This document shows, one piece after another, positions 2,055 through 34,938 of a stretch of 38,558 nucleotides of DNA. The stretch is taken from assembly GCA_934718065.1 (NCBI GenBank), contig CAKUZR010000017.1:1-38558 (forward strand). Direction: 5' to 3'. The translations under genes and the position numbers were made by a program. This DNA comes from an uncultured Treponema sp. GTDB lineage: Bacteria > Spirochaetota > Spirochaetia > Treponematales > Treponemataceae. Position 1 is the stretch's first letter. The number at the start of each line of letters is the position of its first letter. A model generated the notes under the pieces. It was not told where the DNA came from. It searched no databases and was given only the letters and a program-made list of their open reading frames with translations.

Positions 2055-4856
2055 ATGACTGAAAATCTGATTGAAAAACTTCTTCTTGAAAATATAAAGA
2101 ATCAGTCCGCGTTTTTTGTGTTTCCAACGCAGACTTCCGCGGATTTATGGGCAGACAGAATTGTTTCAACGGGCAGCGCAAAAGCTGTTGCAATGGAACG
2201 TTTCCTTGTCTGGGACAAATTTAAAAGCTCTTCAATCAGAAGCAGGCAGCTTCAGAAAACTTCCGTGCCTTCTGCAATGCGCTCAATTTTTGTTTCAAAT
2301 TTAATAGAAGAAAACGCGCGGAAACCTTTTCTGAAGAATTTAATCTCTCCGGAATATGCGGACTCAGCATCTGGATTTACAAAATGGCTCGCAGGTCTTA
2401 TTCCTTCCCTTTTCACCTGGAAAAACCATTTTCAGAAATCGGGAATGCAGCCCGACCAGGAAGACCAGGATCTTCTGGAGCTTTACAAACGCTACAGCGA
2501 ATTCCTTGACCAGCACAATTTTTTTGATCCGGCCTGGGAAACTCCGCCGTTTGTTCCGGACGGAAACCATTATTTCATCTTTTTTCCGGAGATTCTTTCA
2601 GATTATTCCGAATACGAGCAGATTCTTGAAAATTCCCCGGAAAGCATAACCGCCGTCCACGTTCCGCAGGAAATTCTTTCGCAAAAGCCGCAGAACGTTC
2701 ATCTTATGCAGAATTCCCGCCAGGAAATCCGCGCCGTCTGCCTTCATCTTAGGCAGCTTCACGAGCAGAAAAATATTCCATGGAACGAAATTGCGGTGAG
2801 CGTTCCAGATTTGGAAAGCTACGGGCCGTATCTGGAGCGCGATCTGGAGATTTACCAGATTCCTTATGTAACAAAAAACGCGGAAGATTTGAATTCAACA
2901 GGCGCAGGCAATTTCTTCAGCCTGATTTTAAATTGCAAGCAGCAGAATTTCAGCTTTGAATCAATCAAAAATCTTCTATTAAATAACAATCTTCCGTGGA
3001 AAGACGAAAACCGGATTTTCAGCCTGATAGAATTCGGAAAAGAAAACAACTGCGTGTGCAGCTTTGAATTCAACAACGAAAAAATCGACATCTGGAGCAA
3101 ATCCTTTCAGAATCCAAAGGAAAATCCGGACGAGCAGTCCCGGCTTTTTTACGTCCAGCTGAAAAAAGATATAAATTCACTAGCAAACTCCAAGAATTTC
3201 GCCGAAATCAGAAGAAATTATTTCATTTTCCGCGAGCATTTTTTTGACATGAGCCTTTGCTCAGAAAATTCAGACAATATTTTAAGCCGGTGCGTCACAG
3301 AGCTGGCGGAACTTATAAATCTTGAGGAAAATTATCATTTCCAGCTTTCAAATCCGCTGAGTTTTTATTCAAGCTATCTTTCCGGAATAAAATATCTTGC
3401 GCAGACAAAGCAGCGCGGCGTTCAAATTCTTCCATATAAACTGGGTTCGTGCGCGCCGTTCAAAGCGCAGGTTGTTCTGGATTCAAGCCAGAGCGGACTT
3501 TCCGTTGTCTACAAGCAGCTTTCGTTTTTGCGCGACGACAAGCGGAAAATTCTTCTGAACGGCAAGGACGACCCGAACGTTTCAGAGCTTTTTGCAAAGC
3601 TTTATGAAATGAATTCAATTGAAGAGCCGGTTTTCTTCACCTGCGCTGAAAAAACTTTCACAGGATATGCGCAGGCTTCAAGCTATCTTTCAGAAATTGA
3701 ATTTAAAAACGATGAGAACCTGAAAAATCTTCTTGAAAACGATTTTTATCTGGATGAAAAGAAATTCTTCCTGAATCCTGAAGCCGGTTTTCCAAAGAAA
3801 ATCACCGGAACAGAAAAAAAAGGAATTGATTTTTGGAAAAACAGCCAGAAATTTCAGGAGCCGGACGTTTCAGAATCCATAAAAATTGAAAAGAACAAAA
3901 TCGCCGCGGGAAAACTTTTTTCCGCCGACAAGAAAATTCAAATTTCAAGCACAACGCTCAAAAATTTCTTCACCTGCCCGCGGCTCTGGGCAATCGAGGA
4001 AATCGGAAAACTTTCCGAGCAAAAGAACGAGGCCGAAATCGCCGACCACAGAATGCTCGGAAACCTTTACCACAAAATCTTCGAGCTTTTCTGCAAAGAG
4101 CTTAAAAGCCAGAATATTCCTCTTCAGATTGAAAACGACTCTCTTCCGGAAAATCTGATGAAAATTCTCCGCGAAAAAATAGACGAAGCCTTGCTCACGG
4201 AAAAAAACAGCTACCTTTCAAAGGAACTTTTGAAAACCACAAAATCCTCCGTGGCAAGAACCGCCGTGAACGCCGTTTCAACCTTCTCGAAAATTTTCCA
4301 GGGCTGCACAGTTTTCGCCTCGGAAGAAAAATATTTTTTCACCGATGAAGAAAAAAACTGCATTTTTAACGGAAGAATCGACTGCATTCTGCTTGACCCT
4401 TCAACAACGGAGCTTTTTCTTGTTGATTTCAAGAGTTTCACCAGCGCAATTCCGGAAAATTTCCTTTACGACGAATCTTCCGCCGCCTGGGAATTCCCTG
4501 ATTTCCAGATGCCGATGTATCTTTTTCTTCTGCAGAACCAGAAAAAGCCGCTCGAAGTTGAAAACTGCTGCTTTTTCAATGTTTCAAAGGCTGAAACAAC
4601 GCAAGTTTTCGGCCAGGAGCTGTGCGAGCGGATTCTAGCGGCAAAACCAAAATCAAAAAAGCCGAAAAATGCGCTTACCGCAGAAGATTTTGCGCCGACC
4701 AGGGAAAAATTCAGCGAAGCGGTGTCGCTTTTCATCCAGCGAATACAAGACAGCGATTTTTCAGTTTCAGACGAAGCGCAGAACTTTGAAACCTGCGGAA
4801 AATGCCGCTGCAAGGCTGTCTGCCGCCGAACATTCAACGTGAGCCGGCAAAATTAA
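2055..4856 (+). CDS. addB: AddB-type ATP-dependent nuclease subunit B (RexB)
   Basis: A 933-residue protein forming, with the next gene, an AddAB helicase-nuclease that resects double-strand breaks for RecA loading. The C-terminal PD-(D/E)XK nuclease is visible around residues 770-800 (GRIDCI followed by LVDFKSF, with the catalytic D-x-K). The AddB iron-sulphur cluster cysteines are present: one at TCPRLW, and three at the extreme C-terminus (C914, C917, C923; C-x2-C-x5-C spacing). The N-terminal helicase-like half lacks a Walker A motif, as is usual in AddB. It is shorter than the Bacillus protein (about 1166 aa). The ATG at 2055 comes 3 nt after the hemerythrin stop and has no strong ribosome site, which suggests translational coupling. 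An iteron-like site lies at 3177-3192. Confidence 0.9.
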   Translation: MTENLIEKLLLENIKNQSAFFVFPTQTSADLWADRIVSTGSAKAVAMERFLVWDKFKSSSIRSRQLQKTSVPSAMRSIFVSNLIEENARKPFLKNLISPEYADSASGFTKWLAGLIPSLFTWKNHFQKSGMQPDQEDQDLLELYKRYSEFLDQHNFFDPAWETPPFVPDGNHYFIFFPEILSDYSEYEQILENSPESITAVHVPQEILSQKPQNVHLMQNSRQEIRAVCLHLRQLHEQKNIPWNEIAVSVPDLESYGPYLERDLEIYQIPYVTKNAEDLNSTGAGNFFSLILNCKQQNFSFESIKNLLLNNNLPWKDENRIFSLIEFGKENNCVCSFEFNNEKIDIWSKSFQNPKENPDEQSRLFYVQLKKDINSLANSKNFAEIRRNYFIFREHFFDMSLCSENSDNILSRCVTELAELINLEENYHFQLSNPLSFYSSYLSGIKYLAQTKQRGVQILPYKLGSCAPFKAQVVLDSSQSGLSVVYKQLSFLRDDKRKILLNGKDDPNVSELFAKLYEMNSIEEPVFFTCAEKTFTGYAQASSYLSEIEFKNDENLKNLLENDFYLDEKKFFLNPEAGFPKKITGTEKKGIDFWKNSQKFQEPDVSESIKIEKNKIAAGKLFSADKKIQISSTTLKNFFTCPRLWAIEEIGKLSEQKNEAEIADHRMLGNLYHKIFELFCKELKSQNIPLQIENDSLPENLMKILREKIDEALLTEKNSYLSKELLKTTKSSVARTAVNAVSTFSKIFQGCTVFASEEKYFFTDEEKNCIFNGRIDCILLDPSTTELFLVDFKSFTSAIPENFLYDESSAAWEFPDFQMPMYLFLLQNQKKPLEVENCCFFNVSKAETTQVFGQELCERILAAKPKSKKPKNALTAEDFAPTREKFSEAVSLFIQRIQDSDFSVSDEAQNFETCGKCRCKAVCRRTFNVSRQN

Positions 4857-4885: not shown

Positions 4886-7800
4886 ATGCAGAGCAAACCC
4901 GAACAAAAACGAAAATTTGATGAATACCAGCAGAAAGCCATAAATATTTTAAGAAATTCAGTTGTAAGCGCAGGCGCAGGCTCCGGCAAGACAACAGTTC
5001 TTTCCGAGCGTTTTCTGCGTCTTGTCCAGCAGGAAAACTACAAGGTTGAAGAAATTCTTACGCTCACATTTACAAAAAAAGCCACAGTCGAAATGTCCGC
5101 GCGAATTTTCAAGGTTTTAAAGGAAAAAGCGCCCGACAAAGCCGCTGATTTTTACAAGGCGAACATAAAAACTCTGGACAGCTACTGCAGCTCCGTGGCA
5201 AAAATGGGCGCGCATTTCTACGGAATCACCCCGGACTTCACGCAGGACGACACAATCAGCGCGCAGATTCAGCAGCTTGCCCTTCCCTTCATTTTAAAAA
5301 ACCGCGACAACGAGGCAATCAAAACACTAGTAAACTCCAATGATTTTGAAAAAAAAGCCAGCGAAATTTTTGTTGAGCCGATTCTGGAAAATTCAACTGT
5401 AGCAGAACCGATTGATTTTGACCGCTCAACTGAAAACCAGATTCAGGCAGTCCTGAAAACTTGGAAAAAACTAGGAAGCAAAGCGGAAAACGCGCTCCTT
5501 CAGTTTGAAAAAGCCTACTCGGACTTTGACGGAAACCGCAGCACAAAATACATTCTTGCAATAAAGAACATAATAGAAGAAAAAAATCATCCTGAACTTC
5601 CGGAGCTTTCAGAAGAGGACATAAAAAATTCAAATGACGAAAAGTTCCTTCCGTTTTTGGAATATATTTCAGAAATTTGCAAAATTCCCCAGACAGGCGC
5701 GCCGAAAAACGCGGACGAACTGAAAGAAACACAGAACGAGCTGAAAAAAATCGCTCCGCAGGCTGCCTCGGTGATTGACTTTATTCCAAGCTACAAGCTG
5801 ATGAAATCGCTTCTGCCGCTTCTAAAGGAATTCCAGGAGCTGGCAAACAATCTGAAGCGAAGCACGGGCTTCCTTAGCTTCAAGGACATTGCGAACCTTG
5901 CGCTCTGCACTTTGCGCGACCATCCGGAAATACGCAGAATTGAAAAACAGAAATACAAGGCGATAATGATAGACGAATTCCAGGACAACAACAGCGACCA
6001 GCGCGACATGCTTTTTCTTCTTGCTGAAAAGCCGGAGCGAATGGAAAAAAGCGTTCCCGCGGCAGAAGAGCTTTGCCCTGAAAAACTGTTTTTTGTCGGA
6101 GATGAAAAGCAGAGCATTTACCGGTTCCGCGGCGCGGACGTTTCCGTGTTCAGGGCGCTTTCAAACGATTTTAAAGACGGAAATCTTAGCATGGCAACAA
6201 ATTACCGCTCAAAACCAGCGCTGATTGCGGCGTTCAACACAATTTTCGGCGGCTTCCCCTACCCTCCTTCAAAAAACGAGCAGATTTCAAGCCAGCCGTG
6301 TCCACCGTGTGTTTTTTTCACTGAACGGAAGGACTGCTCAGAAGTTCCGGGCTACGAGGCAGTCTACAAAAAAGTCACAATGCCCGAATCAGTTGAAAAA
6401 GAAATTGAAAACAGCCCGCAGATTTTCTCCCCGAAAATTCATTTTGCGCTCTACGATGTGAAAAAAAATGAGGAATTCAAAGGAAATTTAAATTTTCTTA
6501 CCGATGAAGCCGCCGAAGCTGAATGGGTTGCTCAAAAAATCAGCGGATTAATCCAAAACGGACAGAATCCAGGCGAAATCGCAGTTCTTTTCAGAAACTA
6601 CAGCCTTCAGCCGCTCTACGAACGGACATTCCTGAAGCACGGAATTCCATACAACACGGAAGTTGTAACCGGTTTTTTTGACGACGGGCCGGTGAACGAC
6701 ATAATTTCATTTCTCCGCCTTTGCGCCTACCAGGATGACACGCAGCCTTACGCGCAGCTCATGCGCTCGCCGATGGCAAACCTTTCAATAGAAGAAATCA
6801 ACGCGATTCTTTCTTGCGGCGAAAAACCTTTCCATGGCGATTTTTCTTCATTTTTAGACGGAAAAAGCCTTGCGCGCTACGAGCATTTGAAGTCAGAGTA
6901 CGAAAAAATAAAGGAAAGCGCAAAAAACAAGCCGCTCACAAAAATTATTTCTGAAATCTGGTACGATTTCGGCTACCGCTACGAAACTTTGTGGAATTCA
7001 ACAGTTTCTGTCTACGGAAAAATGTACGACCTCCTTTTTGAGCTTGCCCGAAAAGCGGAGCTTCAGAACCTTAGCATCGCGGCGTTCGTTGACAGCGTTG
7101 AAAAATACAAGGAAAAATCAAATTCGCTGGACGGAAAAACCGAAAAACTTGAAGGAATGGATATTCCGCTGGAACAGACTTCCGGCGTGCACATTCTTAC
7201 AATCCACAAAAGCAAAGGCCTTGAATACGACACAGTTTTTATCTGCGGAACGCACCGGAAAGGAAAAAACGAAACAAATTCAAAAGCCGTATACTGCAGC
7301 AAAAAATACGGAATTTCCGTGAACAATCCGGAATCCGAGCACCAGAATTATTTTTACCAGCTTGTTGACGAGGAAAACAAAAAAATGCAGAACGCGGAGC
7401 TGCGGCGGCTTACATATGTTGCCCTGACCCGCGCAAAAAAAGAAATTTTCATAACAAGCGGAAAATACTCGCCTTCAAAAGATTCGTCCGGATTCCTTCC
7501 GGGCGGAGAAAAAAATCCAGCCACGATTTTCAATGTTCTGGAACCGGTTTTCGATTTTTATTCACAGGAAGAAACAAATTCTCCGCTGCCTTTTGACACC
7601 GAGGAAATAAATTCTTTTCCGCGGACGATTGAAAATTCATCCGGAGCCGCAAAAAACAACGCAAATTCAAAAATTGAATTCCTGAACTTACTAGAAAACT
7701 CCAAGATTCTTCAAACTTCCGAGGAAATCATTCCCGACGAGCCGGATGAAAAATACGTTTCTCCTAGCAAACTCCATCCTGCCGACGAAGAATTAGAACT

Positions 7801-8386
7801 TCAGCCTGAAAACCTAAAGTTCGACAGCTCAGCGCCGTTCCAGGAAATCAACGAAATTGTGCAGAAAACAAAAAAATTCACATTTGAAAATTTCGGAACG
7901 ATTGCACACGCATACATGGAAGCCGCCGTTAAAAATATTGAAACGCCGTCTTATCCCGCAAAAGAAATTTCCGCGCTTGAAGACAAAACTGAATTCCTTG
8001 AAACAATAGACAAAATCTGCCGCCAGATGCAGAAAACTTTCATTGACTCGGAAATCGGAGCCGCGGCAAAAAATTCCGCCTGGAAAAAAACAGAATTTGA
8101 ATTCCGCGGAACAGCCGGAAAAAAAATCATCCGCGGAATAATCGACCTTGTGTTCAAAAATTCCGACGGAACTTTCACAATAATCGACTACAAGACGAAC
8201 CAGACAATTCAGCCGGAAATTTACGAAGCCCAGCTCACCTGCTACAAAAAAGTCATTTCAGACATGCTCGAAATTTCCCCGGAAAAAATCCGCTGCTATC
8301 TTTACTACTTAAGATTTGGAAAATTAGTTGAAATAAAAACTGAAAATTCTTTTAAAAATCTTGAAAATATTATTGACAACATCTGA
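4886..8386 (+). CDS. addA: AddA-type ATP-dependent helicase/nuclease subunit A
   Basis: A 1166-residue UvrD/RecB-family SF1A helicase with a C-terminal RecB nuclease. Motifs in order: Walker A AGAGSGKTT (29-37), Ia TFTKKA, II MIDEFQD, III VGDEKQSIYRFRGAD, IV NYRSKPAL, V TIHKSKGLEYD, VI YVALTRAKK, then the nuclease GIIDLV and IIDYKTNQ (D1101, K1103). It is the motor and second nuclease of AddAB. The ATG at 4886 follows CCGAGGA, 29 nt after addB. A strong terminator follows. Four iteron-like sites (5324-5339, 5462-5477, 7688-7703, 7761-7776) lie inside the gene, the third a full match to the consensus. Identity is very secure. Confidence 0.95.
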   Translation: MQSKPEQKRKFDEYQQKAINILRNSVVSAGAGSGKTTVLSERFLRLVQQENYKVEEILTLTFTKKATVEMSARIFKVLKEKAPDKAADFYKANIKTLDSYCSSVAKMGAHFYGITPDFTQDDTISAQIQQLALPFILKNRDNEAIKTLVNSNDFEKKASEIFVEPILENSTVAEPIDFDRSTENQIQAVLKTWKKLGSKAENALLQFEKAYSDFDGNRSTKYILAIKNIIEEKNHPELPELSEEDIKNSNDEKFLPFLEYISEICKIPQTGAPKNADELKETQNELKKIAPQAASVIDFIPSYKLMKSLLPLLKEFQELANNLKRSTGFLSFKDIANLALCTLRDHPEIRRIEKQKYKAIMIDEFQDNNSDQRDMLFLLAEKPERMEKSVPAAEELCPEKLFFVGDEKQSIYRFRGADVSVFRALSNDFKDGNLSMATNYRSKPALIAAFNTIFGGFPYPPSKNEQISSQPCPPCVFFTERKDCSEVPGYEAVYKKVTMPESVEKEIENSPQIFSPKIHFALYDVKKNEEFKGNLNFLTDEAAEAEWVAQKISGLIQNGQNPGEIAVLFRNYSLQPLYERTFLKHGIPYNTEVVTGFFDDGPVNDIISFLRLCAYQDDTQPYAQLMRSPMANLSIEEINAILSCGEKPFHGDFSSFLDGKSLARYEHLKSEYEKIKESAKNKPLTKIISEIWYDFGYRYETLWNSTVSVYGKMYDLLFELARKAELQNLSIAAFVDSVEKYKEKSNSLDGKTEKLEGMDIPLEQTSGVHILTIHKSKGLEYDTVFICGTHRKGKNETNSKAVYCSKKYGISVNNPESEHQNYFYQLVDEENKKMQNAELRRLTYVALTRAKKEIFITSGKYSPSKDSSGFLPGGEKNPATIFNVLEPVFDFYSQEETNSPLPFDTEEINSFPRTIENSSGAAKNNANSKIEFLNLLENSKILQTSEEIIPDEPDEKYVSPSKLHPADEELELQPENLKFDSSAPFQEINEIVQKTKKFTFENFGTIAHAYMEAAVKNIETPSYPAKEISALEDKTEFLETIDKICRQMQKTFIDSEIGAAAKNSAWKKTEFEFRGTAGKKIIRGIIDLVFKNSDGTFTIIDYKTNQTIQPEIYEAQLTCYKKVISDMLEISPEKIRCYLYYLRFGKLVEIKTENSFKNLENIIDNI

Positions 8387-8402
8387 ATTAAATGGTAACT
8401 TA

Positions 8403-8457
8403 TTATCAGCTTGTAAATAAGCTGATAAACTCTCTCCGATGCTCGTGAAAAACGAGC
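8403..8457 (+). other. Two hairpins between addA and its terminator
   Basis: TTATCAGCTT (8403-8412) pairs perfectly with AAGCTGATAA (8419-8428), and GCTCGT (8441-8446) pairs with ACGAGC (8452-8457). With the terminator that follows they make a compact three-hairpin unit of about 100 nt. It could be an mRNA 3' stabiliser or a small RNA; no known family is recognised. Confidence 0.5.
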
Positions 8458-8459
8458 GA

Positions 8460-8502
8460 CAGGGCTTCTGGATACGTTGTGTTCGGAAGCCCTGTTTTTT
8501 TT
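8460..8502 (+). terminator. Intrinsic terminator after addA
   Basis: CAGGGCTTC (8460-8468) pairs with GAAGCCCTG (8486-8494), extendable inward with wobble pairs to a long stem with a small loop, followed directly by eight T. It closes the hemerythrin-addBA unit. Confidence 0.9.
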
Positions 8503-8880
8503 GTAGAGCCACAGTTTCCTGAAAAATGCGCGAAATCCACCGCACCAACAAATCATCCAGATGTTGGTTTGCCGCGGCAAAAAATTTTGTTTCCGCGCAG
8601 AAATTCCTAGAGAAAAACACTGATTCCACGCGGATTTTCTGAAATTCAAAATATTCAAAAAACGGCATATATTTTCGCTAAAATGGATACATTATTGAAT
8701 CAACGTCGAAAAATGCGTTTTTCGATAAAAAACATATTAGATATATTAGATATATTACTTTTTATCTTACTTTTCTAATTAAATATATTAATTAAAATAT
8801 TACAAAATAAGCAATCTTTTTTATTATTTTATATCTAACCTTTATTATATTTTATCTAACTTTTATTACTATTTTTAATA
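8503..8880. other. AT-rich intergenic region upstream of parA with repeated motifs
   Basis: No gene is seen. The region from about 8726 to 8930 is extremely AT-rich, a candidate unwinding element. An exact hairpin (TCGAAAAA 8706-8713, TTTTTCGA 8718-8725) marks its left border. A 9-bp tandem repeat ATATTAGAT occurs at 8734 and 8743 with a degenerate third copy, and TATCTAAC occurs twice at 8832 and 8853, 21 bp apart. TTAGATA and TATCTAA are inverse versions of one motif, so this may be the partition centromere or operator of the adjacent par genes. Confidence 0.5.
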
Positions 8881-8886
8881 ATATTA

Positions 8887-8920
8887 TTGATTAGTTTTAT
8901 TATTTATGTTAGAATTCTAA
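8887..8920 (+). promoter_or_regulatory. par operon promoter with palindromic operator
   Basis: TTGATT (8887-8892), a 17-bp spacer and TAGAAT (8910-8915) form a sigma-70 promoter. A perfect 12-bp palindrome TTAGAATTCTAA (8909-8920) covers the -10 box and resembles the TTAGATA motif upstream, so it is a plausible repressor site for the ribbon-helix-helix protein encoded in the same operon. Confidence 0.55.
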
Positions 8921-8964
8921 TATTCTCAAAAAGAAAAATTTCAAATTTTTCAAGGAGGCCCGAA

Positions 8965-9720
8965 ATTAAAGTCATCACATTGGCGCTTGCAAAAGGCGGA
9001 GTAGGGAAGTCAAGCATATCGCTCAGCCTTGCCGCTGAACTCGCAAAAAAACACAAGACAGTTCTCATCGACGGAGACGTTCAGGGAAACAGCTCTTCAA
9101 CTCTTGTGTCGGAAACAAAATTTGAGCTTGCAGATATTTTGAACGGAAAATGCTACGTTGAGGACGCTGTTGTAAAAACAGAAATTCCGAATCTTTTTGT
9201 GATTCCAACTGTAGCCACGGAAAACAACTTGAGAATTTACAAGGCGCAGAAAGCCAGCGAGGAGCCGGAAGTTTTCATGGACATAACAGACGAGCTTGAA
9301 AAACTCGGATTTGAATACGTTATAATCGACACGTCACCGGCGTTCGACGCATTCGAGGGAAATATTTTCCTTGCCACAGACGAAGTGATTCCGGTAATGC
9401 TGCTCGATCCGTACTCATTCGACGGACTTACAATGTTCAAGAAAAACCTGGAGGAATTCCGCGCGAAGCACAAGAGGCAGCTTTCAGACTCAAAGGCCGT
9501 TATAAAGCGGATTGTCCTGAACAACTACGACTCGCGGCTTGCGCTTTCAAGAAACATTCTGGACGTGATGCAGAAACAAAGCGAGTACAAAACTTACCTG
9601 ATTCCGACTGAACAGAATTTCAAGCGCTCGGTAAACCAGAAAACTCCGGTTCAGTACATTTCCGGCACAAAGGCGCAGGTTCTTAAAGGGCTGGAAGAAC
9701 TCGCGGGAGACGTTGAATAA
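8965..9720 (+). CDS. parA: ParA-family partition ATPase, probable ATT start
   Basis: A 251-residue ParA/Soj-type P-loop ATPase for replicon segregation. The deviant Walker A motif KGGVGKSS lies near the N-terminus, DGDVQGNSS follows as motif A', and IIDTSPAF is Walker B. An AAGGAGG site at 8952-8958 lies 6 nt before ATT at 8965, giving the typical ParA opening I/M-KVITLALAKGGVGK. No ATG, GTG or TTG lies at a workable distance: the next TTG is 21 nt from the site, and an upstream TTG at 8887 lies inside the promoter. ATT initiation is therefore inferred, a rare codon that would keep expression low. The gene overlaps the next by 1 nt (TAATG), typical of a type Ib par operon with an RHH partner. 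Confidence 0.9.
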   Translation: MKVITLALAKGGVGKSSISLSLAAELAKKHKTVLIDGDVQGNSSSTLVSETKFELADILNGKCYVEDAVVKTEIPNLFVIPTVATENNLRIYKAQKASEEPEVFMDITDELEKLGFEYVIIDTSPAFDAFEGNIFLATDEVIPVMLLDPYSFDGLTMFKKNLEEFRAKHKRQLSDSKAVIKRIVLNNYDSRLALSRNILDVMQKQSEYKTYLIPTEQNFKRSVNQKTPVQYISGTKAQVLKGLEELAGDVE

Positions 9721-10100
9721 TGGCAATCATGAAGAAACCTTCAAACGAGCTTCCAAAAGAATTCGTTTCGCAGGCAATGGAAACTTTGAGCTCGGAAAAC
9801 CAAGAAACTGAAAGAGCAAAAATTCCGGCCGCAGCAGTAAAAGCAAGGCAGGTTACCGCGGCACCGGCGGAATCATTTCAGGATTCAAAAAATGAAAAGA
9901 AAAATCCATCCGGAAAATACAGCGACGTTATAAACCTGAAGCTTCCAAAAGGCGAGCGGAACAGGCTGAAAGGACTTTGCGCCCAGTTCGGAATCTCGAT
10001 GAACCAGTTCATACTTTATTCAATCTACGAACTGGAAGAAAGAATAATGGACGGAAAATGCACAGTTTCCCAGATGGGAGTAAGAGAAATATCAAGATAA
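9720..10100 (+). CDS. Ribbon-helix-helix partition partner (ParG/ParB-like)
   Basis: A 126-residue protein with a long, low-complexity, basic N-terminus (to about residue 75) and a C-terminal ribbon-helix-helix: strand DVINLKLPKGERNRLKG, then helices around FGISMNQFILYSIYELEER. Known for such partners (ParG, Omega): the RHH dimer binds repeated sites at the centromere and represses the par promoter, while the mobile N-terminus stimulates the ParA ATPase. The start overlaps the parA stop (TAATG), so translation is coupled. Likely target sites are the TTAGATA and TTAGAATTCTAA motifs upstream of parA. The assignment rests on fold and context, since the N-terminus is not conserved in such proteins. 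Confidence 0.8.
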   Translation: MAIMKKPSNELPKEFVSQAMETLSSENQETERAKIPAAAVKARQVTAAPAESFQDSKNEKKNPSGKYSDVINLKLPKGERNRLKGLCAQFGISMNQFILYSIYELEERIMDGKCTVSQMGVREISR

Positions 10101-10105
10101 ACAGA

Positions 10106-10149
10106 CGGCATGGAATTTGCTAGTAAGCAGAATCCGTGCCGATTTTTTA
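10106..10149 (+). terminator. par operon terminator with iteron 1 in its loop
   Basis: CGGCA (10106-10110) plus GGA pairs with TCC plus TGCCG (10137-10141), followed by six T. The loop contains the first iteron (10111-10126), so initiator bound there would sit on the terminator. Confidence 0.65.
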
Positions 10150-10445
10150 TTATATGGAAAATTCTAGTAATTTAATGGAAGAAACTAGTTAGTTTTTGGA
10201 ATTTGCTAGTAACAAGAAAAAAGGAATGAAAAATTCCTTGGAAAAACCTAGTAAGAAAACCCGCGGAAAACAGATTTTTTTTGGAATCAGCTAGTAAAAA
10301 AAGGAAAAAACTAGTAAGCAGATGGCATTTTCTAGCAAGGAAATGGAAAACGCTAGGAACTTCTGGAAAAACCTAGCAAGAAAATGGAAACAGCTAGTTG
10401 GAAGAAATGGCGAAACCTAGTGAAAAACTTGGAAACAACTAGTAA
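10111..10445 (+). repeat. Left iteron array of the replication origin (13 copies)
   Basis: Thirteen direct repeats of TGGAANNNNCTAGTAA start at 10111, 10155, 10176, 10197, 10239, 10282, 10302, 10323, 10344, 10364, 10385, 10408 and 10430. Neighbouring starts are 20-23 bp apart, or about twice that (42-44) where a copy is missing, so all sites face the same side of the helix. CTAG is invariant, TGGA is nearly so, and the middle is variable. They are the expected binding sites of the Rep protein encoded just downstream. Confidence 0.92.
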
Positions 10446-10479
10446 GATAAAACTGTAAAATCTTTCACCACAAGAAAAT

Positions 10480-10562
10480 AGACACGCTCAATAATAAATA
10501 TAAATTTAAATATTAAGAAATAAAATTTATAATATTCATCAGAAAAAAAAATAATATTAGGT
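10480..10562. other. AT-rich candidate DNA-unwinding element
   Basis: About 80 bp of almost pure A/T directly after the last iteron and before repeat element A. Position and composition match the duplex-unwinding element of iteron-type origins. This is inference from layout. Confidence 0.5.
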
Positions 10563-10564
10563 AG

Positions 10565-10751
10565 AATGTTAAGTTTTTTGTAAAAAAGTGAAAGCGAAGG
10601 CAGATTTTCAGATTGTGAAGATTTTTGGCGATTGAGGCAGTTAAAGTGCAAAGCACCCGAATTAATACAAGCGAAGCGCGAGCTAAATCCATCTGAGCAA
10701 ACTGAAAATCTGCCGAAAGCGTTCTTTCAGAATTTGTAAAAAACTCAACAT
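10565..10751. repeat. Repeat family A, copy 1 (palindromic-ended, ~185 bp)
   Basis: The element is bounded by near-perfect inverted ends: AATGTTAAGTTTTTTGTAAA on the left pairs with a TTTGTAAAAAACTCAACATT-like right end. Inner arms GGCAGATTTTCAGATTG (10599-10615) and CAAACTGAAAATCTGCC (10698-10714) also pair. It shares most of its core with the copy at 24716-24900. It has no coding capacity and lies between the AT-rich element and the rep promoter. Confidence 0.8.
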
Positions 10752-10849
10752 TTAAATTATTAAGCAGACTTTTCTAAAATTGAACTTAAACAGCCTGAAA
10801 AATATCATAAAAAAAATCAAAAAATTTTTGCAAAGTAACTAAAATTTGC

Positions 10850-10878
10850 TTGCACACCTAGTAAGTTTGATTTATATT
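10850..10878 (+). promoter_or_regulatory. rep promoter with an iteron in its spacer
   Basis: TTGCAC (10850-10855), a 17-bp spacer and TATATT (10873-10878). The spacer contains CTAGTAA (10858-10864), the conserved half of the iteron, so the initiator could repress its own gene. The rep ATG begins only 6 nt after the -10 box. Confidence 0.7.
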
Positions 10879-10884
10879 CAATCT

Positions 10885-11982
10885 ATGGGGAAAAAAGAAA
10901 CGGGTGGAATTTTGAACTTTAAAAATTCATCGCTGGAAACAACAGATCTGGTGCTGACCGGAGACGAATCGACAAAGCCTTCTTATTTGATTCAGAAAAA
11001 CGCAATGAGCAAGGCATACTATAAAATTTCTGCAATGGGAAAAAAACTGATTTCAATGGCAATGGCAGTAAACAACATGCAGAAAACAATTTTCGGCGAC
11101 ACAAACTACTACGAGGCGAAATTTTCGTTCAACGACTTTTTCAAGTCGATGGGAATTTCAATTGGCGGCACAAGCATTGAAAGAATAGCCGAATGCGCGG
11201 ACGAGTGCGTTCATTTTGTAATAAATTTTCACACGGACGACCTTCAGAATTTCATACCGCTGTTTTCGTTGATTCAAATTGACAAGACAAATAAAATTCT
11301 GCGGTTTGTATTCAATCCGATTATAAACAACTTTCTGGAGCAGCAGGCCGGACACCACAAGATTAATTTTCTTGAATACGGAAAGCTCCGCTCAACTTAC
11401 GCGATGCGCTACTACGACATTTTTGAGCAGTACAAAGGCTTCGCGGGGAAAAACGGAAATCCGAAAAACACATGGACCTGCTCGCTTTCGTTTGACGAGA
11501 TAAAAAATCTTTTTCAGCTTGATGAAATTTACCAGAACCGCACGGACAACTTCAAGAAATTTGTAATAACCGAGCCAATCAAGGAGCTGAACGAAAAAAT
11601 CACTTCGATGAAAGTTGTTAAGCAGGACTGGCTGAAAACCGGAAAAAAACACACGGGCGTCCGCTTTACGATTATGCGCACCGAATCCGGAATGACGGAC
11701 TACGACAAAGTTTCGCCGTATCTGAATTTTATTGAGGACCAGGGCGACAGAATTCTTGTGTGCCAGAACGCGGAGCTTTATCTTTCGCTGATTCAGAAGG
11801 AAAACGCTGTTGTGAAAGTTGATTTGGAAACTGCTAGTGAGTCAACGGAAGGAACGGAGCTTAGGCAGCTTCAACTTCTTTGCGGAATGGCTCTGAACGA
11901 CTTGAAGGAACAGAAAAAGAATTCAAAGAAACTAGCAAACTCCAAAAAGAACGAAAGTCTTCAGAAAGAGCTGTTTCTTTAA
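10885..11982 (+). CDS. Plasmid-type replication initiator, Rep_3 family
   Basis: A 365-residue initiator resembling Rep_3 (RepA/RepE/Pi-type) proteins, which bind iterons through two winged-helix domains and open the origin. Family-like features: the opening LIQKNAMSKAYYKISAMGKKLISMAMA, the central FLEYGKLRSTYAMRYYDIFEQY (winged helix 1 end), then LSFDEIKNLFQL and the C-terminal winged helix. The C-terminal 50 residues are lysine-rich. The ATG at 10885 is preferred over an upstream TTG at 10846, because that TTG lies before the promoter. No ribosome site precedes it and the -10 box is 6 nt away, so the mRNA is probably leaderless. Two iteron-like sites lie in its 3' end (11825-11840 and 11929-11944). 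Flanking iteron arrays and par genes support the function. Confidence 0.9.
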   Translation: MGKKETGGILNFKNSSLETTDLVLTGDESTKPSYLIQKNAMSKAYYKISAMGKKLISMAMAVNNMQKTIFGDTNYYEAKFSFNDFFKSMGISIGGTSIERIAECADECVHFVINFHTDDLQNFIPLFSLIQIDKTNKILRFVFNPIINNFLEQQAGHHKINFLEYGKLRSTYAMRYYDIFEQYKGFAGKNGNPKNTWTCSLSFDEIKNLFQLDEIYQNRTDNFKKFVITEPIKELNEKITSMKVVKQDWLKTGKKHTGVRFTIMRTESGMTDYDKVSPYLNFIEDQGDRILVCQNAELYLSLIQKENAVVKVDLETASESTEGTELRQLQLLCGMALNDLKEQKKNSKKLANSKKNESLQKELFL

Positions 11983-12018
11983 AACTGAAATATTTCCGCT
12001 GCTAGGAAAGAATCCGGG

Positions 12019-12445
12019 TGGAAATAGCTAGTAAATTCCAAAAAATAATTTTCTCAGAAAAAAGGCTTCAGTTTTGCGTATGTGGCAAGGATTGTAAGGT
12101 CTGGCGAAGCCAGTTCTGCGCATTGTCCGCAAGATTATTAAACCTGCTGCCGAGTTTTGCGGTGCAAAAATCATATTTATTGTTTAGGAAAAACATCAAA
12201 AGCGCAGAATGAAGGCGGAAGCCGGAAACCTGAAAAGCCTGGTTTTGGCGGGTGAGCCTGCGAACCTGGCAAAAGCCACCCAGAAAATAAAAATCTTCTT
12301 TTAAAAAATGGTTTGGAAAAAGCTAGGTAGTTTCGCGCGCATTTTCTTTTTTTGCTGTATGGAGTTTGCTAGTAAGTTGTTGAGGCTTGGAAATTTCTAG
12401 GATATTTGTGGCGTTTCCTAGGGGTTTATTGGCAAAAACTAGTAT
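12019..12445 (+). repeat. Right iteron array downstream of rep
   Basis: Iterons start at 12019, 12314, 12360, 12388, 12409 and 12430. The last three are exactly 21 bp apart. The 12019 copy overlaps a reverse-strand copy, forming a palindrome (TGGAAATAGC followed by TAGTAAATTCCA). The 12360 copy is a full match (TGGAGTTTGCTAGTAA). A repeat B copy interrupts the array between 12081 and 12281. Confidence 0.85.
12081..12281 (+). repeat. Repeat family B, copy 1 (hairpin-chain element, expanded)
   Basis: Begins GTGGCAAGGATTG and ends GCAAAAGCCACCC like the copy at 15428-15565. It contains the triloop hairpin CTGGC-GAA-GCCAG, then a larger insertion bounded by TTCTGCGC and GCGCAGAA, which itself contains CCGCAA paired with TTGCGG. 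The 3' half (GCCGGAAACCTG then AAAGCCTGGTTTTGGC) is the most conserved part of the family. Confidence 0.7.
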
Positions 12446-12606
12446 TTTGTTATAAAAAAGTATACATATTGAGATAAATAAATTCTTTCTGAATTTGTTA
12501 ATAGTATGTGCTTTTTTTTTGACAGTTTAAATTTCAGTAAATTTGAATTTAGTTTTTTGAAAAATTTCTGATGGGCTTCCGTCATTCCGCGGGCGGCTCG
12601 GCGGCG

Positions 12607-12714
12607 TTCGACATTATTTTGAATGTCTGATATAGTTTTAGCTTGACTGCGCAGTTTATGATTCCTCAAAAACTCCTGCGCATAAAAAATTAAAATCCTT
12701 AAGGAGGCTGTGAA
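12607..12714 (+). promoter_or_regulatory. Promoter and structured leader of the queuosine-precursor transporter
   Basis: TTCGAC (12607-12612), an 18-bp spacer and TATAGT (12631-12636) predict a transcript start near 12643 and a leader of about 72 nt. It folds as TGCGCAG (12648-12654) with CTGCGCA (12676-12682), followed by an A-rich tail. The loop CCTC (12664-12667) can pair with GAGG (12704-12707) of the AAGGAGG ribosome site, a pseudoknot layout like that of small preQ1 riboswitches. It does not match the class I consensus loop, so this is a candidate only. Confidence 0.4.
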
Positions 12715-15400: not shown

Positions 15401-15427
15401 GTTCCGGTTGAATTTGTGTTTGCGGAC

Positions 15428-15565
15428 GTGGCAAGGATTGGAAGGTCGCGCGGAGCGCGTTGCGGAATAAAAACGAAGTTTTTATGGAGCAATGGAGGCG
15501 GAGGCCGGAAACCTGGAAAGCCTGGTTTTGGCTGGTGAGCGTGTCGAGCCAGGCAAAAGCCACCC
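15428..15565 (+). repeat. Repeat family B, copy 2 (hairpin-chain element)
   Basis: Runs from GTGGCAAGGATTG to GCAAAAGCCACCC. It contains hairpins CGCGC-GGA-GCGCG and AAAAAC-GAA-GTTTTT in series, then the conserved GCCGGAAACCTGGAAAGCC block and a terminal CTGG/CCAG arm. No open frame is conserved between copies, so it acts as DNA or RNA. Confidence 0.78.
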
Positions 15566-15693
15566 TGAATATGAAAATTTGAAGTCCTGCCTTTTAAATT
15601 TCTTTTGCTATTTAATAGAATATTTTGAAATTCGGATGCTTTTTTTTGCATTTTTTTATATATTTTAGTGTGGGGAATTTTTAAGGATTTTTT

Positions 15694-24707: not shown

Positions 24708-24715
24708 CCTGAATG

Positions 24716-24900
24716 TCGAGTTTTTTGCGGAAAAGAATAAAAGCGCAGGCAGATTTCCAGTTTGTGAAGATTTTTGGCGATTGAATTAATAAAAGTGCGA
24801 AGCACCCGAATTAATACAAGCAAAGCGCGGGCCAAATCCATCTGGAGCAAACTGGAAATATGCCGAAAGCGTTCTTTCAAAATTTGCAAAAAAAACTCGA
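24716..24900. repeat. Repeat family A, full copy 2
   Basis: Outer ends TCGAGTTTTTTGC and GCAAAAAAAACTCGA, and inner arms GGCAGATTTCCAGTTTG (24748-24764) and CAAACTGGAAATATGCC (24848-24864), form nested inverted repeats around a conserved core (AGCACCCGAATTAATACAAG). It lies just after the lipoprotein stop. It encodes nothing plausible; size and palindromic ends suggest a small non-autonomous mobile element or a REP-like unit. Confidence 0.82.
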
Positions 24901-30467: not shown

Positions 30468-31262
30468 ATGGAGAAAGAGCGAAAAATCGTATTGAAAAAT
30501 GACATTTTGCAGGCGTTCAAAGAAGTTGGCGTGCAAAACGGACAGTCAATTATGGTTCATACATCCTTAAGCAAATTGGGGTTTGTATGCGGCGGAGCGC
30601 AGGTTGTGATAGAAGCGCTGCTTGAATCTGTAGGGAATGACGGCACAATTATGATGCCGGCTCAGTCCTGGAAAAATCTGGATCCCGAGTGCGGCGTTCA
30701 TTGGGAAGAACCGAAAGAATGGTGGCAGCTGATTCGCGACAACTGGCCTACCTATGATAAAGATATTACGCCGACAAATACAATGGGCGCGGTTGCTGAA
30801 ATGTTCAGAAAATGGCACGGAACATTAAGAAGCGATCATCCTTCCCGCTCTGTGGCTGCTTGGGGAAAGAATGCGGAATTTTTGACTTGCAGGCATGACT
30901 TGTCAAATGTGTTCGGAGACGGCTCCCCGATTGGAAAGCTTTACGATTTGGACGGATATGTCCTGCTGATTGGCGTTGGATATGACAAGAACACTTCGCT
31001 TCACCTTGCCGATGTGCGCGCGGATTATCCTGGAAAACATTTCTGCACAGATCACAGCGCGGTTATGGAAAACGGAAAAAGAATCTGGAAGCCTTATGAA
31101 GTATTATTTGTTGACGGCAAAGATTTTGAAGAAATCGGAAAGGATTTTGAACAGTCCTGCAATGTAAAAAAAGCCCGGCTCGGAAACGGAACAATAACAT
31201 TTATGAAGCAGCGGGAACTTGTTGATTTTGCAGTAAAATGGATTGAAGCGAATAGAAAATAA
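30468..31262 (+). CDS. AAC(3)-family aminoglycoside N-acetyltransferase-like protein
   Basis: A 264-residue protein of the aminoglycoside 3-N-acetyltransferase (antibiotic NAT) family, which transfers acetyl from acetyl-CoA. Conserved blocks are MVHTSLSKLGFVCGG (about 30-44), DGTIMMPAQSW, HPSRSVAAWGK, DGSPIGKLYDLDGYVLLIGVGYDKNTSLHLAD and the C-terminal GNGTITFMKQRELVDFA. The length is typical. It has its own promoter and ribosome site. Many chromosomal members, including YokD-like proteins, do not confer resistance, so resistance should not be assumed. Confidence 0.88.
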   Translation: MEKERKIVLKNDILQAFKEVGVQNGQSIMVHTSLSKLGFVCGGAQVVIEALLESVGNDGTIMMPAQSWKNLDPECGVHWEEPKEWWQLIRDNWPTYDKDITPTNTMGAVAEMFRKWHGTLRSDHPSRSVAAWGKNAEFLTCRHDLSNVFGDGSPIGKLYDLDGYVLLIGVGYDKNTSLHLADVRADYPGKHFCTDHSAVMENGKRIWKPYEVLFVDGKDFEEIGKDFEQSCNVKKARLGNGTITFMKQRELVDFAVKWIEANRK

Positions 31263-34649: not shown

Positions 34650-34719
34650 AGCCTGATTATAAATCGAAAAGTGAAAAATTCAAGCGGGAAAATAATTTCG
34701 AGTTTTAAATTTTTTATTT

Positions 34720-34858
34720 GGGTGGCTTCTAGCTGGTTCGCTAAGCTCACCAGCCAGAACCAGGCTTTTCAGGGTTCCGGCATTCGCCTCCATTGCTCCA
34801 CAAAAACTTCGCTTTTGTTCCGCAACGCGCTTTGCGCGCCCTTACAATCCTTGCCACA
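34720..34858 (-). repeat. Repeat family B, copy 4 (inverted orientation)
   Basis: Read on the minus strand it runs from GTGGCAAGGATTG to AGAAGCCACCC and is the closest relative of copy 2. Hairpins are CGCGC-AAA-GCGCG and an AAAAGC-GAA-GTTTTT stem, then the conserved AAAGCCTGGTT block and a CTGG/CCAG arm. It lies between ade and the ArsC-like gene. Confidence 0.8.
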
Positions 34859-34938
34859 TCAGAAACCCAAAGTTGAAATTCCAGCCAAAAATTATTGAAA
34901 GAAAACATCCCCGCATCGCAAGTTTTCGTTTTTTCTGT

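Follow-up and report, generated by a model that had tools for sequence, protein, structure and literature searches.

Can a plasmid-type replication module that lies among chromosomal-type genes be a working origin, and on what kind of molecule? The question is raised by a stretch of 38,558 nt from an uncultured Treponema sp. (assembly GCA_934718065.1, contig CAKUZR010000017.1), the whole of which is referred to below as the window. It carries a parA gene, a small partner gene, an array of iterons and rep, the gene of a Rep_3-family initiator. Very probably this Rep_3 module functions as an origin from which replication runs in both directions. We propose, with a probability of about 0.78, that it serves for both initiation and partition of a separate, low-copy, bidirectional secondary replicon (large plasmid or chromid) in a rumen-type Treponema that also has a DnaA chromosome. 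The main open reading frames of the window were annotated with Pfam. In a genus-level search the only close relative with a genome was the rumen Treponema metagenome-assembled genome RUG314 (G001), and the window was compared with its contig C34 (35,690 bp); C23 (211,128 bp) and C30 (67,646 bp) are other contigs of G001.

Along the + strand, the order is addB, addA, a double hairpin, an A+T-rich region, parA, the partner gene, 13 iterons, a stretch of 88% A+T, rep and a second iteron array (Table 1). A first-pass annotation of this DNA had described a complete replicon module with parA, a ribbon-helix-helix (RHH) partner, a Rep_3-type initiator and phased iterons. Three of these components were found as described. 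ParA is recognized by Pfam, its nearest solved chain by sequence being the PF-32 protein 3k9g, and Rep matches both domains above the cut-off, Rep3_N with 49.2 bits (cut-off 22.4) and Rep3_C with 36.2 bits (cut-off 21.1); no solved structure matched the Rep profile at E<=0.01. The fourth component, an RHH-like partner, is plausible: the protein showed no Pfam match at E<=0.001 and no solved-structure match at E<=1, and the sole hint is a sub-cut-off match of HicB type (E 0.012). Of the type Ib-like ParA/RHH cassette, ParA is thus clear, and the DNA-binding nature of the partner is suggested by this weak match. Translation of parA probably starts at a rare codon, ATT at 8965, because AAGGAGG at 8952-8958 precedes it and G001 has the same ATT; a 1-base length difference puts the upstream TTG of the window out of frame in G001, so that ATT is preferred.

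The iterons were scanned with the pattern WGG[AC]-N5-CTAG and with a tightened form, TGGA-N5-CTAG. The looser pattern gave 29 sites in the window, 22 of them within 10111-12442, that is, in 2.3 of 38.6 kb. The 13 direct copies of the origin array are spaced by 44, 21, 21, 42, 43, 20, 21, 21, 20, 21, 23 and 22 bp, and the 13 copies on C34 by 44, 21, 21, 42, 43, 21, 21, 21, 20, 21, 23 and 22 bp. The 12 spacings therefore show a single 1-bp difference between two species, although the letters of the iterons differ.

The strand composition turns at this module. Over the first 8 kb the GC skew is -0.03 to -0.21 and the AT skew +0.05 to +0.25, in agreement with the earlier observation that A exceeds T and C equals or exceeds G on the left side, and over 12-33 kb the GC skew is +0.03 to +0.32. 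The cumulative skew proposed as a check, when run on the window, has its extremum in the module, with minima at 9069 for GC (inside parA), 12293 for T-minus-A and 12308 for both combined. The GC contrast (21 kb to the right minus 8.4 kb to the left) is 0.215 at the module, above all of 1049 comparison positions, which overlap in 500-bp steps and are thus not independent; these were taken from C23, C30 and the T. saccharophilum replicon pTS1, those of C23 and pTS1 lying >30 kb from the origin. PMC7858055 gives GC skew as a predictor of the replication mode of chromids.

The same turn could be produced by gene orientation or local gene content only, and two observations point that way: the raw skew weakens or reverses over minus-strand genes at 33-38 kb, and C34 shows no A/T turn. 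Gene orientation as the source was tried and ruled out by the left/right difference among genes of the same strand at fourfold sites. Plus-strand genes on the left (taken as lagging; four genes, 965 fourfold sites) have GC and AT skews of +0.01 and -0.07, against +0.39 and -0.37 for plus-strand genes on the right (leading; 2027 sites), the difference being significant for GC (Fisher P 1.8e-11) and AT (P 1.2e-8). Minus-strand genes on the right (lagging), read on the + strand, give +0.04 and 0.00; the window has no minus-strand genes on the left. Skew is almost absent from both lagging classes and strong in the leading class, which fits the prediction of a bidirectional origin. The GC turn is repeated in C34, where the cumulative minima for GC (10679) and for both skews combined (12175) fall within the same module; coding-strand skews from automatic open reading frames are +0.08 and -0.01 for left plus, +0.30 and -0.20 for right plus, and +0.03 and +0.07 for right minus genes. 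With this repetition, and with a contrast above every off-origin position, an origin of the flip in orientation or gene content only is very unlikely. On these two replicon fragments, a skew extremum at the module that is independent of gene direction is found for GC and AT in the window and for GC only in C34.

The module is conserved between the two species. Window and C34 align in blocks of 79-90% identity across 1.6-26.8 kb, the alignment ending after ~26.8 kb, and ~25 kb of gene order is shared at dS near or above 1. Across 10 compared genes dS is 0.9-1.8, synonymous sites being near saturation, and dN/dS is lowest for parA (0.014), followed by a LysR gene (0.024) and rep (0.026), with addA and addB near 0.10. 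parA and rep are under strong purifying selection. The module is presumably being used, because it is so constrained at such divergence. C34 matches the window in the module, its spacing, its flanks and the GC turn; the A/T turn is not seen there. The right end of C34 (L036:11502-15690) encodes a phage-type integrase and a Mob_Pre protein, which suggests an inserted mobilisable element.

To which molecule, then, does the module belong? The first-pass annotation had left room for a chromosome that uses a Rep_3 origin in place of DnaA/oriC, and had called for a search for dnaA. In G001, dnaA was found on C23, a contig separate from C34, with its own cumulative GC minimum (108,510 of 211,128) beside it; the DnaA C-terminal domain is encoded at 109,783-109,989, and two DnaA boxes lie directly behind dnaA. 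Leading genes around this dnaA have GC skews of +0.18 and +0.31. The DnaA C-terminal domain was detected in 162/196 Treponema genomes. A Rep_3 chromosome was rejected on these grounds. Replacement of DnaA/oriC by the Rep_3 origin would account for the skew turn at the module, the dnaA evidence comes from a relative, and 34/196 genomes of the genus gave no match to the domain; against the dnaA contig of G001 and the 162 genomes, we regard it as extremely improbable. We infer that the molecule is separate and that the window's own species has a DnaA chromosome. The GC content is 0.379 for C34, 0.380 for C23 and 0.42 for the window, and the tetranucleotide correlation is 0.70 between C34 and C23 and 0.72 within C23. 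Short dispersed repeats are common to C34, C23 and C30 and therefore support their origin from one organism. One such repeat is inserted between the origin and rep in the window and is missing at the equivalent place of C34; it has relatives in C34 and C23, and the C34 copy is also matched in C30.

The module could instead be a plasmid inserted into the main chromosome, the skew turn being then the edge of an inversion or the result of an ectopic second origin. The Pfam-annotated flanks of the module are ordinary metabolic genes plus addAB, a pair that four relatives have on the dnaA contig; the molecule is not closed in any assembly, and inversion edges in general can also turn the skew. However, in two species separated by a dS near or above 1, the edge of an inversion would need to fall at the module, and parA and rep are still strongly selected. 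Moreover, C34 is not within ~100 kb of dnaA, because C23 spans both sides of dnaA without C34. Integration is thus unlikely, and a separate secondary replicon remains the preferred explanation.

Large replicons of other Treponema species carry a similar arrangement. The ParA of the window is 48, 39 and 43% identical to those of pTS1 and pTS2 (T. saccharophilum) and pTRESU01 (T. succinifaciens), and all three share the row of parA, small gene(s) and a putative initiator. The complete circular pTS1 (NZ_AP025289.1, 423,813 bp) has its cumulative GC minimum at 245,288, inside its parA (245,171-245,917). The putative initiators are unlike Rep_3, being DnaD/HTH_36-like in pTS1, RepA_C in pTRESU01 and without Pfam match in pTS2; the Rep profile of the window matched none of them though it matched G001, and pTS1 has 0 TGGA-N5-CTAG sites. 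From one complete replicon and the gene order in two, it seems that the partition cassette marks the origin of large Treponema replicons, with differing initiators attached.

Several observations weigh against the proposed origin and replicon. The G excess on the right had been thought to continue to the window end even over minus-strand genes (metE, ade and a helicase gene). This is seen over 12-33 kb, including metE (+0.06 to +0.10 on the + strand, +0.30 in its proper frame), but fails at 33-37 kb (ade, methyltransferase, helicase), where the GC skew lies between -0.02 and -0.12, with the cumulative curve falling after 32780; on the + strand, fourfold sites of ade and the helicase gene give -0.09 and -0.13, whereas their third positions give +0.06 and +0.10. 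The GC curve of C34 falls only slightly on the left (-53), and its T-minus-A minimum lies at the contig end (35,660), with none at the module. Lagging genes around dnaA on C23 have GC skews of 0.00 and -0.23, the latter arm not being near zero. In pTS1 the T-minus-A minimum is at 419,312, the combined minimum (260,883) is 15 kb from parA, and the contrast at the origin (0.136) is matched by the best off-origin position (0.138) in the 8.4/21-kb measure. Because the initiators of pTS1, pTS2 and pTRESU01 are not Rep_3, these plasmids are evidence for the partition cassette rather more than for the initiator found here, and the Rep profile matches 23/200 Treponema genomes, closely only in G001. 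There is no DnaA box (TTWTNCACA) between 7558 and 14605, a range that takes in the module. The molecule is closed in no assembly, the window (38.6 kb) and C34 (35.7 kb) each being a fragment. Taken against these points, the skew turn with gene direction controlled, the GC turn in C34, the selection on parA and rep and the GC minimum of pTS1 in parA still make the working bidirectional origin that had been suggested at first very probable.

DnaA boxes are frequent at Rep_3 iteron origins but not universal. The iteron plasmids F (RepE) and P1 (RepA) are alike in having a Rep_3 initiator, iterons on both sides of rep and a ParA cassette; the window is unlike them in the missing DnaA box and in having iteron-like sites also within the neighbouring addAB. 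The second array we take to be comparable to incA of P1 and incC of F. A plasmid of the same genus, NZ_AP025291.1 (8.4 kb, T. saccharophilum), has a Rep_3 initiator 31% identical to that of the window over 57% of the query. To judge by its size, this plasmid is probably the one that carries the rRNA genes of T. saccharophilum, described in PMC10645730, a precedent for core genes on a Rep_3 plasmid; as described there, it differs from the window replicon in being small, of estimated high copy number and without a partition system. Chromosome 2 of Vibrio cholerae (RctB, ori2, crtS) is a much-studied case of a second replicon of iteron-plasmid descent. According to PMC6090056 and PMC11711613, RctB has additional sites at a distance from ori2 and also on chromosome 1, and its central domains resemble WH1/WH2 of Rep proteins (PMC11711613).

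The genes beside the module had been called chromosomal-type. For addAB, this holds in four of 14 relatives (G002, G015, G016 and G018), which have the pair on the dnaA contig; for the other 10, dnaA is on a different contig or has no listed place. In the lineage of the window, addAB most likely sits on a secondary replicon. AddA-like matches were obtained in 196/196 genomes, the weak ones of which may be other UvrD helicases, and addB and addA were adjacent at all 14 AddA loci inspected in relatives. No match to parA, the partner or rep of the window was found in 10-20 kb around addAB at these loci. G001 has a single AddB match, next to rep on C34. As regards a possible chromid, plasmid-type replication and partition genes are found together with addAB, a pair located on the dnaA contig in the four relatives named.

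The secondary replicon could also be a dispensable megaplasmid with a replaceable addAB rather than a chromid. This sub-case, whose share is included in the proposed replicon, has a little less than an even chance. Such a view agrees with the integrase and Mob_Pre genes of C34, with the end of the alignment after ~26.8 kb, and with the lack of tRNA genes (none in the window or C34) and of any Rfam match in the window at gathering scores. addAB is also not generally essential. That G001 has its only AddB here, and that ~25 kb of gene order has persisted despite a dS near or above 1, argue against it.

The addAB genes contain iteron-like sites. TGGA-N5-CTAG occurs five times in addAB of the window and four times in addAB of C34, at matching positions. 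Synonymous shuffling of addAB gave means of 0.13 and 0.16, and 0/3000 shuffles reached the observed count in each species; this result is somewhat flattered, since the pattern was tightened to TGGA after the addAB sites were seen to fit. The background is one site in 88 kb of addAB from 14 relatives and three in the 211 kb of C23. All eight fixed bases are retained at 4/5 sites, where the background rate is 0.198 (P 0.006). These are predicted Rep sites that would add to titration.

A further pair of sites lies on C30. The extended pattern TGGA-N5-CTAGTNA has 13 matches in G001, of which C34 has 11 and C30 the remaining two, one on each strand (4528 and 4869), and the reversed control pattern has 0 matches in G001. 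The 97 other genomes have 48 matches together and never more than four each, and the closest pair on the same contig is 2.1 kb apart. Among 20000 synonymous shuffles of the permease (transporter) gene that holds the pair, 0 gave two such sites, and three did so for TGGA-N5-CTAG. With the looser pattern, C30 has 3/12 of the G001 matches outside C34. The pair lies 2 kb from the enolase gene, the only enolase match of G001; enolase is on the dnaA contig in 6/8 relatives with a match (10 searched). In synteny, C30 has only eno itself in common with five relatives, among which the order around eno is kept in one pair only (G013 and G014); neither this comparison nor tetranucleotide profiles assign C30 to the chromosome or the second replicon. 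C30 also encodes a Vat-like acetyltransferase (L118:10869-11558), the best NCBIfam match of which is below its cut-off.

The following sequence of events would account for these features. Rep would bind the 13 phased iterons and open the adjoining A+T-rich DNA, and forks departing both ways would leave the skew turn. Rep bound at the array behind rep and at the half-site in the rep promoter would limit initiation through titration, origin pairing and autoregulation, the three means by which P1 and F limit theirs. ParA and its partner would segregate the molecule. The replicon would have captured addAB, and the Rep sites within these genes would contribute to titration. Going further, initiation of the chromid may be tied to the genome by its own iterons, Rep binding both to the addAB sites as a titration belt and to the pair in the transporter gene near enolase; this idea is speculative and rather unlikely.

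Table 1. Coordinates of features discussed in the window (vs G001: comparison with RUG314)
Feature	Position	Strand	Basis or remark
addB, PD-(D/E)XK nuclease, helicase-nuclease subunit	2055..4856	+	Pfam PDDEXK_1
Iteron-like site in addB (TGGA-N5-CTAG)	3180..3192	-	kept in G001
addA, UvrD-type helicase-nuclease	4886..8386	+	Pfam UvrD-helicase, UvrD_C, PDDEXK_1
Iteron-like site in addA	5327..5339	-	kept in G001
Iteron-like site in addA	5462..5474	+	kept in G001; top score outside module (23.1)
Iteron-like site in addA	7691..7703	-	11/13 bases in G001, not exact
Iteron-like site in addA	7764..7776	-	kept in G001
Double hairpin with T-run behind addA	8435..8500	+	fold of 8430-8500, z -7.1
A+T-rich region before parA	8735..8860		4 TTAGATA words (3 in G001), partly conserved
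parA	8965..9720	+	Pfam AAA_31/CbiA; dN/dS 0.014 vs G001
Skew-turn interval	9069..12308		cumulative GC minimum to combined minimum
Small ParA partner	9720..10100	+	overlaps parA stop; dN/dS 0.094
Origin array	10111..10450	+	13 direct iterons, multiples of ~21 bp
A+T-rich stretch (88%) beside iterons	10487..10586		base composition
Short dispersed repeat, ~180 bp	10564..10754		second copy 24711-24893
rep promoter region with iteron half-site CTAGTAAG	10839..10884	+	nearly unchanged in G001
rep, Rep_3-family initiator, WH1+WH2	10885..11982	+	Pfam; 93% aa identity, dN/dS 0.026 vs G001
Second iteron array	11825..12442		9 sites, rep 3' part to beyond gene; palindromic pair 12019/12028

Some of the smaller elements can be given candidate roles. 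The 88% A+T stretch beside the iterons is a candidate unwinding element, a stretch before parA being equally A+T-rich (90%), and the A+T-rich region with TTAGATA words is a candidate centromere or operator for the partner protein. The half-site in the rep promoter is a candidate autoregulatory operator. The double hairpin behind addA is a probable terminator or small RNA end; 66/66 bases are identical in C34 while the flanks there are poorly conserved, and elsewhere, in 196 genomes, there were one 82% match (G062) and two partial 83% matches (G017 and G088). Outside these elements, a second family of short intergenic repeats occurs in both orientations (12208-12294, 15413-15583 and 34704-34871). 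An Abi_2-family (abortive infection-like) protein is encoded at 537-1481, left of a hemerythrin gene and addB, and a protein of the aminoglycoside 3-N-acetyltransferase family at 30468-31262 (Pfam Antibiotic_NAT; resistance putative).

In protein searches, Rep proteins 84-94% identical to that of the window were found also on metagenome contigs of <=5.8 kb. One of these relatives, P0001 (94% identical), represents 206 member sequences in the protein collection, which may mean that the replicon is frequent where samples were taken. None of 400 candidate viral stretches encodes a relative of Rep. In the openly licensed literature, a scope outside which most subscription journals fall, no paper title on a Rep_3 chromid in Treponema was found.

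If the proposed replicon is real, an iteron replicon has taken over a DNA-repair gene pair from the dnaA chromosome and has kept it through the divergence of species. Most interesting, and new, are the conserved iteron-like sites that lie outside the origin. According to PMC6090056, crtS of Vibrio is without likeness to iterons, in contrast to the pair of iteron-like sites on C30. If C30 is chromosomal, this pair would act as a crtS-like checkpoint made of true iterons; if C30 is instead part of the second replicon, the only enolase of the cell is encoded there, and the molecule would be a genuine second chromosome. The sites in addAB and the pair near enolase together make a concrete prediction on how such a replicon would be limited or coupled to the chromosome.

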